Source of the DNA: Candidatus Egerieimonas intestinavium
GTDB taxonomy: Bacteria > Bacillota > Clostridia > Lachnospirales > Lachnospiraceae
Reading direction: 5' to 3'
NCBI GenBank assembly: GCA_018711815.1
Contig: DVHU01000099.1
Coordinates: 1 to 64,000 of the forward strand
Length of the DNA stretch: 64,000 bases
In this document: positions 1,886 to 9,268 of the stretch, in pieces
Layout: every line of letters begins with the position of its first letter
Position numbering within the stretch: the stretch's first letter is position 1
Notes under the pieces: generated by a model
Seen by the model: the letters and a program-made list of their open reading frames with translations, nothing else
What the model was told of the DNA's origin: nothing
Databases searched by the model: none
Translations under genes and position numbers: made by a program

Positions 1886-1900
1886 CCAATTTTGATACAA

Positions 1901-1967
1901 GATATCCCAAAAGTAAAAGCTTCTATAACAATTACGAGGAAGCTAATACTTTTGGGATGTCTTTTTT
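1901..1967 (+). terminator. Rho-independent terminator
   Basis: ATCCCAAAAGTA...AAGCTT...AAGCT..TACTTTTGGGAT followed by a T-run. Confidence 0.8.
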
Positions 1968-2045
1968 CTCGTCCATGTCTATATTCCGCGCAGCGGATAT
2001 GGTATAATAGCCGAACAATTATTAATTAATGAGGAGGAGATTTCT

Positions 2046-2768
2046 ATGAATTTTGACCCGAACAGCGGCTTTCTCTTTGCGGTGGCCGCCATTGTGATTC
2101 TGTTTATTATTGCCCAGTCTGTATTTTTTCTGGTGCGGGCAATCCGGCAGGCCAAGGTGCTGAAGATGGACATGCGGCAGGTTAGAAGAACCATCGTGTC
2201 CACGGCTATCTTTACCATAGCGCCGGCCATTTCTATTTTACTGGGGGTGATTACCCTGGCGAAGTTTTTGGGACTGCCCCTGCCCTGGATTCGGCTGAGC
2301 GTTATCGGCGCCATCACCTATGAGCTGCCGGCGGCCACATCCACGGCCACGGCCCTGCAGGTATCCCTGTCGGAGACCATCCGGGATCCCCAGGTTTACA
2401 CGGCCATTGCCTGGGTGATGACTCTGGGAATTTTCCCGGGGCTGGTGCTGGTGCCTCTGTTTCTGAAGAAAATCCAGAAGGGGCTGATGACCCTAAAATC
2501 CAAGGACAGCAAGTGGGGAGATATCTTTATGACCGCCCTGTTTTTGGGAATGATCTCTGCATTCCTGGGAATGGTTTTTGCGGATATCCGCACAGGGCTG
2601 GCGGGATGGATTCCCATCTTTGTCCTGCTGTTTTCTGCCCTGATCATGGGCGTCTGCGGAATTTTGATTAAGAAATGCAACATGAAGTGGCTGGAAACCT
2701 ACGCCTTGCCGGTGAGTATGCTGGGAGCTATGGTCTTTGCCTGCGTGATTACGCCCATGATTGTTTAG
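2046..2768 (+). CDS. multi-pass membrane protein, DUF5058-like
   Basis: 240 aa, about 6 hydrophobic segments, TYELPAATSTATAL motif; RBS GAGGAG. Confidence 0.65.
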   Translation: MNFDPNSGFLFAVAAIVILFIIAQSVFFLVRAIRQAKVLKMDMRQVRRTIVSTAIFTIAPAISILLGVITLAKFLGLPLPWIRLSVIGAITYELPAATSTATALQVSLSETIRDPQVYTAIAWVMTLGIFPGLVLVPLFLKKIQKGLMTLKSKDSKWGDIFMTALFLGMISAFLGMVFADIRTGLAGWIPIFVLLFSALIMGVCGILIKKCNMKWLETYALPVSMLGAMVFACVITPMIV

Positions 2769-2780
2769 GAGGAATGGAAA

Positions 2781-3437
2781 ATGAAGAGAAGTTATGATGA
2801 TATGACCCATATTTACGGCAGAATCTGGATTTTGACCGCTCTGGTTGTGGTTTTTATGGTGCCTATTTCTGCCTGTGTGTACTATGACGCCTGGCCGGGA
2901 ATCACCCCGGTGCTCAAGGGACTCCTGGGAGTGGCGCCTATTTTCTGGACAGTGGCTGTGATAGAGGTGGTCACCTACTGCCCCATGCTGGGAAGCGCCG
3001 GCTCCTATCTGGGATTTGTCACTGGAAATCTGACTAACCTGAAGGTTCCGGCGGCGCTGACAGCCATGGAAAATGCCAAGGTAAAGCCGGGAACTGAGGA
3101 GGGAGAGGTGATTTCTACGATCGCCATTGCCACATCCTCCATTGTGACTACGGTGATTATCGCCCTGGGAGTTCTGATGCTGGCTCAGCTGACGCCTATC
3201 TTAAATTCTCCCCAGTTAAAGCCCGCCTTTGACAATATTCTTCCGGCCCTCTTCGGCGGTCTGGCTGTGGTGTATGTGAGCAAGAACTGGAAAATTGCCA
3301 TGGCGCCCCTGATCTTTATGGTGGCTCTTTTCCTGGCGGTTCCGGCCCTGTCCAGCTCTGTGGGGGTTCTGGTGCCGGTGGGCGCTGCCATCGCTCTTTT
3401 GGCTGCCCGGATTATGTATAAGAAGAATTTGCTGTAA
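2781..3437 (+). CDS. multi-pass membrane protein, operon partner of the upstream membrane protein
   Basis: 218 aa, hydrophobic; 12 nt after the previous stop; contains VIEVVTYCPMLGSAGSYLG. Confidence 0.65.
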   Translation: MKRSYDDMTHIYGRIWILTALVVVFMVPISACVYYDAWPGITPVLKGLLGVAPIFWTVAVIEVVTYCPMLGSAGSYLGFVTGNLTNLKVPAALTAMENAKVKPGTEEGEVISTIAIATSSIVTTVIIALGVLMLAQLTPILNSPQLKPAFDNILPALFGGLAVVYVSKNWKIAMAPLIFMVALFLAVPALSSSVGVLVPVGAAIALLAARIMYKKNLL

Positions 3438-3449
3438 GGAGGCGGTTTT

Positions 3450-4889
3450 ATGTGGTATATTCTTGGGGCTCTGGCAGCGGCTGTGTTCCTTTTTCTGGCG
3501 GTGATCCTCATACGCGGAGCAATGTTCAGGCCTCTGCCGGAGGAAAAGCCCCAGGCCGGGGATGTGATGCTGGATGAGGATAAAATTGTGGGCCATATGG
3601 TGGAGCTGCTGCGGTGCAAAACCATTTCCTACAATGATGACAGCCTCATCGACAAAGGGGAATTTGAAAAATTCCGGGAACTTCTTCCGAAGCTGTATCC
3701 CCAGGTACACAAGATTTGTACCAGAGAATTCATCGGAAATACCGGGATACTCTATCGCTGGAAGGGGAAAACCCCGGAAAATCCCGTGGTGCTCATGTCC
3801 CACTACGATGTGGTTCCCGTGGAGGAGGATCGGTGGGAGAAGCCGGCCTTTGCGGGAATTGTGGAAAACGGGGTGATCTGGGGCCGGGGAACTCTGGATA
3901 CCAAGGGAACCCTCTGCGGTGTTATGGAGGCGGCGGAATCCCTGCTGGAGCAGGGCTATGTGCCGGAACATGACATTTATTTTTCCTTCGGCGGAGACGA
4001 AGAGATCAACGGCCCCACAGTTCCGGCTATTGTGGCGGAGCTTGAGCGAAGGGGAATCCGCCCTGCCATGGTGGTGGACGAGGGAGGCGCCGTGGTGGAA
4101 AATGTATTTCCCGGCGTGAAGGGCGAGTGCGCCCTCATCGGAATTGCGGAGAAAGGGCTGACAAACATGCGCTTTACCGCCTCAAGCCGGGGCGGCCACG
4201 CCTCCATGCCGCCGGCTCACACTATTGTGGGAGAGCTGTCAAAGGCCGTGGTGGACGTGGAAAATCATCCCTTCCCCATGCAGTTTACCAAACCGGTGGC
4301 GGAAATGTTTGACCGGCTGGGCAGGTACTCTACCTTCGGCTACCGGGTCTTATTTGCCAACATGTGGTGCTTTAAGCCGCTGCTGGACAAGATCTGCCGG
4401 ATGTCCGGCGGAGAGCTCAACGCGCTGATGCGGACCACCTGCGCCATGACGAAGATGAGCGGCAGCAAGGCCTACAACGTAATCCCGCCCAAGGCGGAGG
4501 TGGGCATGAACCTGCGGCTTCTGGGGCAGGACACGGTGGAGTCTGCCAAGGCATACCTGGAGAAGGTGATTCATAACCCCAACATTCAGGTGGAATGTGT
4601 GGAGGGATGGAATCCCTCCCCGGACAGCGACACCAGCTGCCAGGAGTGGAAGAGGCTCTGCAGGGCTGTGGGTGAGACCTGGACGGAGGCGCTGGTATCT
4701 CCATATCTGATGATGGCCTGCAGCGACTCCCGGCATTTCTGCAAGATCACCGACCGGGTATACAAGTTTTCCGCCATGAAGCTCTCCAAGGAGGAGAGGG
4801 GGATGATTCACGGAAATAACGAGAGAGTTCCCGTGGAGACTCTGGTAAAGACGGTGGAGTTTTATGTGCGCCTGATGCGCTACTGCTAA
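3450..4889 (+). CDS. M20 family metallopeptidase, N-terminally membrane anchored, PM20D1/CPS1-like
   Basis: MSHYDVVPV, WGRGTLDTKG, GGDEEING, VDEGG, NVIPPKAEV motifs; N-terminal TM segment WYILGALAAAVFLFLAVILI. Confidence 0.85.
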   Translation: MWYILGALAAAVFLFLAVILIRGAMFRPLPEEKPQAGDVMLDEDKIVGHMVELLRCKTISYNDDSLIDKGEFEKFRELLPKLYPQVHKICTREFIGNTGILYRWKGKTPENPVVLMSHYDVVPVEEDRWEKPAFAGIVENGVIWGRGTLDTKGTLCGVMEAAESLLEQGYVPEHDIYFSFGGDEEINGPTVPAIVAELERRGIRPAMVVDEGGAVVENVFPGVKGECALIGIAEKGLTNMRFTASSRGGHASMPPAHTIVGELSKAVVDVENHPFPMQFTKPVAEMFDRLGRYSTFGYRVLFANMWCFKPLLDKICRMSGGELNALMRTTCAMTKMSGSKAYNVIPPKAEVGMNLRLLGQDTVESAKAYLEKVIHNPNIQVECVEGWNPSPDSDTSCQEWKRLCRAVGETWTEALVSPYLMMACSDSRHFCKITDRVYKFSAMKLSKEERGMIHGNNERVPVETLVKTVEFYVRLMRYC

Positions 4890-6650: not shown

Positions 6651-7577
6651 ATGAATACAAGAGTTACAGAGCTTCTGGGAATTCAGTACCCGATTATCCA
6701 GGGAGGAATGGCCTGGGTGGCAGAGCATCACCTGGCGGCGGCCGTGTCTGAGGCCGGCGGTTTCGGACTGCTGGGAGCTGCCAGCGCCCCGGCGGATGTG
6801 ATTCGCCAGGAAATCCGTAAGGTGAAGGAGCTGACCGATAAGCCCTTCGGCGTCAATGTGATGCTGTTAAGCCCCTACGCGGAGGAAGTGGCCCACGTGG
6901 TGGCGGAGGAAGGCGTTAAGGCGGTGACCACCGGAGCCGGAAACCCGGAGAAATACATGGAGATGTGGAAAAATGCGGGAATTAAGGTGATTCCCGTGGT
7001 GGCCTCTGTGGCTCTGGCCAAGAGAATGGAGCGCTGCGGGGCAGACGCCGTGGTGGCTGAGGGAATGGAGTCCGGCGGACATATCGGCTCCCTGACCACC
7101 ATGGCTCTGGTTCCTCAGGTGGTGGACGCGGTGGATATCCCGGTGATCGCAGCGGGCGGTATCGGCGACGGAAGAGGATTCGCGGCGGCCATGATGCTGG
7201 GCGCCGAGGCGGTTCAGATGGGAACTCGCTTTGTGGCGGCAGAGGAATCTATCGTTCATCAGAATTATAAGGATCGGATTATCAAGGCCAAGGATATTGA
7301 CAGCCAGGTGACCGGCATGAGCACCGGACATCCGGTACGTTCTCTGAGAAATCAGATGACCCGGGAGTACTTAAGACTGGAGAAGGAGGGAGCTCCCTTC
7401 GAGGAGCTGGAGATGCTGACGCTGGGCTCCTTAAGAAAGGCCGTGCAGGAGGGCGACGTGGTAAACGGAACCGTCATGGCCGGACAGATTGCGGGTCTGG
7501 TGAAAAAGCAACAGAGCTGCCGGGCAATTATCGAAGAGATTATGGAAGAAGCGGATAAGCTTCTGGGCAGACGCTAG
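6651..7577 (+). CDS. fabK: enoyl-[ACP] reductase II (FMN)
   Basis: MNTRVTELLGIQYPIIQGGMAWVAEHHLAAAVSEAGGFGLLG; FabK position in FAS operon. Confidence 0.93.
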   Translation: MNTRVTELLGIQYPIIQGGMAWVAEHHLAAAVSEAGGFGLLGAASAPADVIRQEIRKVKELTDKPFGVNVMLLSPYAEEVAHVVAEEGVKAVTTGAGNPEKYMEMWKNAGIKVIPVVASVALAKRMERCGADAVVAEGMESGGHIGSLTTMALVPQVVDAVDIPVIAAGGIGDGRGFAAAMMLGAEAVQMGTRFVAAEESIVHQNYKDRIIKAKDIDSQVTGMSTGHPVRSLRNQMTREYLRLEKEGAPFEELEMLTLGSLRKAVQEGDVVNGTVMAGQIAGLVKKQQSCRAIIEEIMEEADKLLGRR

Positions 7578-7590
7578 GAGGAAGGAAGCC

Positions 7591-8520
7591 ATGGGCAAAA
7601 CAGCCATTGTATTTCCCGGACAGGGAGCCCAGTACGTGGGCATGGGAAAGGAATTTTATGAGAAATATCCCGTATGCCGGGAGGTGATGCAGCGGGCGTC
7701 ACAGGTGACGGGACTGGATATCCCCAAGCTTTGCTTTGAGGAAAATCAGGAGCTGAATATCACCGAGTATACCCAGATCGCCATGGTGGCTGTGGAGGCT
7801 GCCATGCTGAAAGCCGCCCAGGAGGAAGGCCTTCAGGCGGATGTGTACGCGGGCTTAAGCCTGGGAGAGTACACGGCCCTCATCGGAGCCGGAGTTTTAA
7901 GCCTGGACGACGCCTTTGCGGTGGTGCGCCAGAGAGGAATTTTCATGCAGGAGGCAGTTCCCCAGGGGGGAGCCATGACCGCAGTGCTGGGCCTGGCCGG
8001 AGAAATGATTGAGTCCGTCTGCCAGGGAGTCCCGGGACCGGTGTGGGTGGCCAATTACAACTGCCCCGGACAGGTGGTGATCACCGGCATGGAGGAAGCG
8101 GTAAAGGAGGCGGAAAGCAAGCTTAAGGAAGCGGGCGCCAGAAGATGCCTGCCCTTAAAGGTCAGCGGACCCTTCCACTCGCCCCTCCTTCAGCCGGCGG
8201 CGGAAAAGCTCAAGGGAGTGCTGAATGAGATCTTTGTGGGACAGATTCAGGTGCCCTATGTGACTAACGTTACCGGAGATTATGTGGAGGACAGCAGTCA
8301 GGTAAAGGAGCTTCTGGCCAAGCAGGTGGCCTCCTCCGTCAGATGGCAGCAGGGCGTGGAGGCCATGGCTGCCCAGGGGGTGGATACCTTCATTGAAATC
8401 GGGCCGGGTAAAACTCTCAGCGGCTTTTTAAGAAAGATTGACAAGTCCTTGAAGGGCTATCATATAGAGACTCCTCAGGATCTGGAGCAGGTGCTGGCGG
8501 AGCTTAAGGGAGAAAATTAA
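7591..8520 (+). CDS. fabD: malonyl-CoA:ACP transacylase
   Basis: [28 protein letters not shown]. Confidence 0.96.
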
Positions 8521-8521
8521 G

Positions 8522-9268
8522 ATGGAAGAGATGAATCGGCGGGTGGCGCTGGTGACAGGCGCCAGCCGGGGAATTGGAAGGGCCATCGCCAAGCGGCTGG
8601 CCCAGGATGGAATCTTTGTAATTGTTAATTACTGCGGATCTAAGGAGAAGGCTGAGGCTGTCCTGGAGGAGATCAAGGCCCAGGGAGGGGACGGAGTCTG
8701 CGCTCAGGCGGATGTCTCTGATTTTGCCGCGGCGGAGACCCTGATGAAGGAGCTGGTGAAGGAGTACGGCCGGATCGATATTCTGGTGAACAATGCGGGA
8801 ATCACCCGGGACGGACTGCTCATGAAGATGAGCGAGGAGGACTTTGACCGGGTGCTGGATGTGAATCTGAAGGGCTGCTTCAACACTATCCGCCATCTTA
8901 GCCGCCAGTTTTTAAAGCAGCGCTATGGCCGGATCATCAATATTGCCTCCGTGGTGGGTGTGATTGGAAATGCAGGCCAGGCCAACTACAGCGCCTCTAA
9001 GGCGGGAATTATTGGCCTGACAAAGAGCGTAGCCCGGGAGCTGGCCAGCCGGGGAGTGACCGCCAACGCGGTGGCTCCGGGATTTATCGAGACAGAGATG
9101 ACGGCGGTGCTTCCGGATAAGATAAAGGAGCAGATGGCGGGCCAGATTCCCCTGGGAACCTTCGGCAAGCCGGAGGATGTGGCGGAAGCGGTGGCTTTTC
9201 TGGCGTCAGATAGCGCCAGATATATTACAGGACAGGTGCTGAACGTAAATGGCGGCATGGCAATGTAG
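8522..9268 (+). CDS. fabG: 3-oxoacyl-[ACP] reductase
   Basis: [23 protein letters not shown] motifs. Confidence 0.95.

Follow-up and report, generated by a model that had tools for sequence, protein, structure and literature searches.

In Escherichia coli, p-aminobenzoyl-glutamate is imported by AbgT and then hydrolysed by AbgA/AbgB (PMC5082436). The operon described here, which encodes a membrane protein of Pfam family DUF5058, a second small membrane protein (P2) and an M20 metallopeptidase, resembles AbgT-AbgAB in that a proposed importer of amino-acid amides is encoded together with an M20-type hydrolase (PMC5082436), and AbgB-like (TIGR01891) enzymes are even found in some DUF5058-P2 loci. 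AbgT, however, is a single large carrier with a family of its own (PF03806), whereas the proposed carrier here consists of two small proteins, DUF5058 and P2, neither of which matched Pfam ABG_transport or DcuC. The isoaspartyl dipeptidase operon of E. coli, YjiH/YjiG-IadA, likewise places two small membrane proteins (Gate-domain proteins) 5' of a cytoplasmic dipeptidase; sequence kinship to the YjiH/YjiG pair was rejected at hhalign probabilities of 0.6% and 0.1%.

The hydrolase recalls PM20D1 and carboxypeptidase S (CPS1) in its best-scoring family model (PRK08262), its motifs and its single N-terminal membrane or signal segment. PM20D1 is secreted and able to condense fatty acids with amino acids, CPS1 resides in the vacuolar lumen and acts on N-blocked dipeptides, and N-acyl amino acids are discussed as host and microbial signals. 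In contrast to both enzymes, the M20 protein studied here is predicted to be cytoplasmic and is encoded in an operon with a proposed carrier. The 7TM inverted-repeat transporters of the UraA/SulP/SLC4/SLC26 kind share with DUF5058-P2 a predicted two-half architecture and occupy nearly all the top ranks of its structure searches; DUF5058-P2 differs from the UraA fold in being split over two genes, in having about 6 + 6 rather than 7 + 7 TM helices, and in low TM-scores.

Organization of the operon

The window, meaning the whole 64,000-nucleotide stretch of Candidatus Egerieimonas intestinavium DNA that was analysed, contains the following features at this locus:

1899..1963, + strand: strong intrinsic terminator, a long hairpin followed by TCTTTTTT (-33 kcal/mol, z -7.6)
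2000..2008, + strand: candidate promoter read from the sequence, with an extended -10 (TGG TATAAT) and a poor -35
2046..2768, + strand: DUF5058 membrane protein (PF16481 match), 240 aa, proposed transporter subunit 1
2781..3437, + strand: P2 membrane protein, always directly 3' of DUF5058, 218 aa, proposed transporter subunit 2
3450..4889, + strand: M20 metallopeptidase, 479 aa, probably of the PRK08262 (carboxypeptidase S/PM20D1-like) type by family models, residues and tree

The three open reading frames announced by an earlier note on this DNA are present at the positions given there, with gaps of 12 and 12 nt; each gene has an AGGAGG-type Shine-Dalgarno site, and these sites overlap the preceding stop codons. 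The terminator separates the operon from an upstream NagB-like gene, and the candidate promoter was missed by a consensus scan because its -35 is weak. A search of the leader for a riboswitch or other known RNA found none. The next gene after M20, 133 nt on, encodes an aldo-keto reductase (from 5023).

Two further observations concern the surroundings. The upstream gene (932-1885, 317 aa) encodes a relative of NagB-like sugar isomerases/deaminases and adjoins a ribose-type binding protein; it has no Pfam match, and its glucosamine-6-phosphate deaminase scores are weak. Downstream, ORFs 6651, 7591 and 8522 (6651-9268), whose translations were read by eye, look like FabK, FabD and FabG, the apparent start of a fatty-acid synthesis cluster 1.8 kb 3' of the operon.

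The M20 enzyme

The product of the third gene exceeds the Pfam cut-offs for Peptidase_M20 (103 bits; cut-off 24.6) and M20_dimer (37.9 bits; cut-off 21). Its catalytic and metal-binding set is complete (H118, D120, D150, E184, E185, D210, H454), is kept in all CPS-type copies, and is probably spaced almost as in PM20D1. Among family models PRK08262 scores highest, at 337 bits with the next at 190, a score that lies below the PRK08262 equivalog cut-offs of 503-825; the PepV and Sapep models give 42-53 bits, and PepV, Sapep and DapE together 42-85. In a tree that included E. coli ArgE, DapE and PepT, a PepV-like enzyme of the same genome (L157; L numbers denote loci) and M20D partners, the window enzyme falls in a separate CPS-type group apart from all of these; some very long rows of the tree, misplaced or from wrong ORFs, are unplaced and were not relied on. 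By sequence, the enzyme is probably of PRK08262 (CPS1/PM20D1-like) type and not of PepV, ArgE or DapE type, its tie to the eukaryotic enzymes resting on family knowledge and the tree consisting of bacterial sequences alone. PM20D1 and CPS1 were not among the entries of the PDB match list.

The motifs quoted in the earlier note and the N-terminal TM anchor (residues ~3-21, a single segment) are both present. In nearly all copies no K/R precedes the anchor, whereas 2-4 K/R follow it; four orthologs (L032, L034, L039, L042) have neither anchor nor signal; and the window copy contains 13 cysteines. From these three features the enzyme is most likely intracellular, its catalytic domain facing the cell interior. 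By family model the enzyme probably belongs to the PM20D1/CPS1 branch, with a predicted cytoplasmic location unlike that of secreted PM20D1 or vacuolar CPS1. Close M20 homologs also occur without DUF5058-P2 beside them (L174, L175); the M20 enzyme is therefore not dependent on the pair.

DUF5058 and P2 as a proposed single unit

The first membrane protein matches DUF5058 (PF16481) over the entire profile (positions 1-222 of 222; E 2.9e-71; 240 bits against a cut-off of 28.2), a Pfam family that had been named before the earlier note. Among the papers searched, none dealt with DUF5058. P2 matched no Pfam or NCBIfam family, and 45 P2 relatives compared with Pfam gave no credible match in any. 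Hydropathy, conservation and the AlphaFold2 model describe DUF5058 as ~6 TM helices plus a broken half-helix element, around which lie the invariant residues W81, R83 and E93. P2 likewise has ~6 TM helices, with a conserved P.LG..g.Y....GN..N motif and invariant G71, Y76, G82, P90 and S119. Hydropathy and conserved charges suggest opposite topologies, N-out/C-out for DUF5058 and N-in/C-in for P2.

Relatives were collected with a P2 query, which gave 70 loci from GTDB genomes, and with a PF16481 query, which gave ~30 further loci from a phylum-wide set of 399 genomes; profile searches of the fetched loci then yielded 101 DUF5058-P2 pairs. DUF5058 lies 5' of P2 on the same strand in every one of the 101 pairs, with a spacing mostly of 2-60 nt. 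The relatives, spread over anaerobic bacteria, belong to Bacillota, Treponema and one Anaerolineaceae genome, and PF16481 is present in 31 of the 399 sampled Bacillota genomes (~8%); a weak PF16481 match in one of the genomes (G116, L131), which has no P2 there, was left out of the pair set. One DUF5058 gene (L104:5980-6675, - strand) carries a single in-frame TGA at codon 126, exactly where the near-invariant Trp is expected, which may reflect a broken gene, recoding or a sequencing error.

In the window DUF5058 and P2 share one reading frame, and reading the TAG as a residue therefore gives the chain DUF5058-QEEWK-P2; many other loci also allow such read-through, 36 of which supplied the paired rows of the alignment. 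As a surrogate for a two-chain prediction, AlphaFold2 modelled this single read-through chain with a pLDDT of 86.7 and a pTM of 0.78, and that of an ortholog with a longer linker derived from the spacer (L007) with a pLDDT of 88.4 and a pTM of 0.86. The proposed co-folding of the two products is thus borne out at the level of prediction, and the confident read-through models support a defined joint structure.

It had also been argued that a shared TY-x-P motif marks the two proteins as halves of one transporter. This motif does not hold up, since the Pro is found in 14 of 50 DUF5058 sequences as against 42 of 45 P2 sequences, and homology between the two proteins was rejected by profile-profile comparison (hhalign probability 1.4%). 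The conclusion that they are probably parts of one transporter stands nevertheless, because it can draw on the invariant pairing and the predicted joint structure.

When both models were compared with the PDB by Foldseek, transporters of the UraA, SulP, SLC26, SLC4 and SLC23 families filled nearly all top ranks (best E 8e-4, probability 1.00), the leading matches having TM-scores of ~0.27-0.34 and rmsd of ~14-20 A. The search found no solved structure in the PDB with a TM-score above 0.34, and the maximum of 0.34 to UraA-fold (SulP/NAT/SLC4/SLC26) transporters lies below 0.5; a sequence-profile search for solved relatives of DUF5058 or P2 gave no credible match. The ranking thus hints weakly at a two-half transporter, and not at membership of the UraA fold.

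An alternative function for DUF5058-P2 alongside the hydrolases, whether as a sensor, as a scaffold in the membrane or as an enzyme embedded there, would agree with the lack of a recognised transporter family in the sequences and with the weakness of the structure matches. It appears improbable, as transporters lead the fold-search ranks, the non-CPS partner enzymes that were examined lack any membrane anchor by which a scaffold could hold them, and the sole common need of the partners, which are soluble and chemically diverse hydrolases, would be substrate supply.

Hydrolases encoded beside DUF5058-P2

In most loci of the closer half of the sample, a CPS-type M20 gene lies directly 3' of P2. 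In the phylum-wide sample an amide or peptide hydrolase is encoded in the same operon at 26 of the 29 readable DUF5058-P2 loci (the exceptions being L109, L117 and L126; L127, with an incomplete flank, is outside the 29). Across the 30 phylum-wide loci, M20 genes make up 18 of the 55 adjacent genes as against 4 of the 206 others (Fisher 2e-10), and those 4 stand one gene further along in the same operon; conservation of the membrane proteins beside M20 genes, which the earlier note had anticipated, is thereby supported.

At distant loci the neighbour is another class of amide or peptide hydrolase. With some labels assigned from Pfam/NCBIfam patterns, the partners comprise CpsA/aminoacylase-type M20D enzymes (L102, L105, L111, L121, L182, L185); AbgB-like (TIGR01891) enzymes (L107, L108, L116, L118, L181, L183, L184); an ArgE/DapE-like second M20 (L102, L129); a carboxypeptidase G-like M20 (L124); an N-carbamoyl-amino acid/allantoate hydrolase (L111); a PRK09061-type amidohydrolase (L119); a Xaa-Pro dipeptidase-like M38 enzyme (L123); an M42 aminopeptidase (L125); a C45 acyltransferase/hydrolase (L103); and an ATC hydrolase-like enzyme (L180). 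The hydrolase class varies with the subfamily of the DUF5058-P2 pair: on a concatenated DUF5058+P2 tree obtained by a quick search, partner class changes 11 times, compared with 17-23 times in 200 shuffles. Genes for a GntR regulator and a DcuC-type carrier lie 5' of the operon in several Clostridia (L039 and relatives), and a PucR regulator gene lies 5' of the pair in L116; both regulators are of catabolic kinds.

Some loci depart from this pattern or have additional neighbours. A clade of herbivore-gut and rumen Clostridia (L049-L070) has kept DUF5058-P2 with no adjacent hydrolase, and the carrier there may serve an unlinked enzyme or have another role. In Alkaliphilus peptidifermentans a second DUF5058-P2 pair follows directly after the first operon and is itself followed by a PGA_cap protein (L030:7354-10140); PGA_cap proteins also follow the pairs of L117 and L120, and these three PGA_cap-associated pairs form one clade. 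Elsewhere, the genes for aconitase X and its swivel domain lie directly 5' of DUF5058-P2-M20 (L045:2444-4255), a hint that the cargo there may be of the hydroxyproline type, and the ATC hydrolase-like gene (2-aminothiazoline-4-carboxylate hydrolase family) that follows the pair at L180:7050-7742 suggests a cyclic amino-acid derivative as cargo.

Proposed function

Taken together, the invariant pairing, the joint model and the subfamily-specific hydrolase partners indicate that DUF5058-P2 most likely imports amino-acid amides as a heterodimer. In the window, DUF5058 and P2, with ~6 TM helices each and opposite topologies, would assemble as a heterodimeric secondary transporter; a small amide-type derivative of an amino acid (N-acyl, N-blocked or a dipeptide) would enter the cell through it; and the M20 enzyme, whose N-terminal helix would tether it to the cytoplasmic side of the same membrane, would split the amide bond, releasing the amino acid and an acid. 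We consider this account, in which transport, direction, location and substrate are all inferred, the probable one, with appreciable room for doubt. N-acyl amino acids are just one of several possible substrates in the window. Across Bacillota the carrier would have been re-fitted to new substrates, a particular cytoplasmic hydrolase accompanying each subfamily.

A more restricted form of the importer model, compatible with it, has an ordinary dipeptide or short peptide as substrate and the M20 enzyme as a carboxypeptidase or dipeptidase for amino-acid fermentation. The action of CPS1 on N-blocked dipeptides, known for that family, favours such a substrate, as do the relatives found, together with DcuC-type carriers, in the peptide fermenters Alkaliphilus and Fusibacter, and the dipeptidase- and aminopeptidase-type partners (M38, M42) in sister loci; yet the window enzyme lies outside the PepV/Sapep group (42-53 bits versus 337 for PRK08262), and several sister loci encode members of aminoacylase, carbamoylase or acylase families, which are not typical dipeptidases. 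We regard this more restricted form as rather unlikely.

The earlier note had offered import with hydrolysis and synthesis with export side by side; the former is retained as the inferred function, and the latter, in which the M20 enzyme would condense a fatty acid with an amino acid and DUF5058-P2 would export the product as a signal or surfactant, is very unlikely in spite of the CPS1/PM20D1-like type of the enzyme, its membrane tether and the apparent fatty-acid synthesis cluster downstream, because the partners of sister carriers (carboxypeptidase G-like, carbamoylase, Xaa-Pro dipeptidase, M42) are degradative and the M20 enzyme is predicted to lie in the cytoplasm, where condensation is unfavourable unless energy is supplied, and the aldo-keto reductase gene stands between the operon and the fab-like cluster.

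Significance

The interest of the proposed import-and-hydrolysis system rests less on its PM20D1-like enzyme than on DUF5058-P2 as a probable, undescribed modular importer. The broader proposal, about which we are evenly divided, is that DUF5058-P2 founds a family of secondary transporters new to science, each encoded by two genes whose products look unrelated and have inverse topology. Such transporters would be interchangeable in importing amide-linked amino-acid derivatives, and each subfamily would be coupled to a cytoplasmic hydrolase specific to it. If true, the proposal would give a testable function to DUF5058, a family of unknown function in Pfam, and to the family-less P2, and the hydrolase in each DUF5058-P2 operon would name the likely cargo. 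Gut Lachnospiraceae would then have a route to import and degrade amino-acid amides, possibly including N-acyl amino acids.
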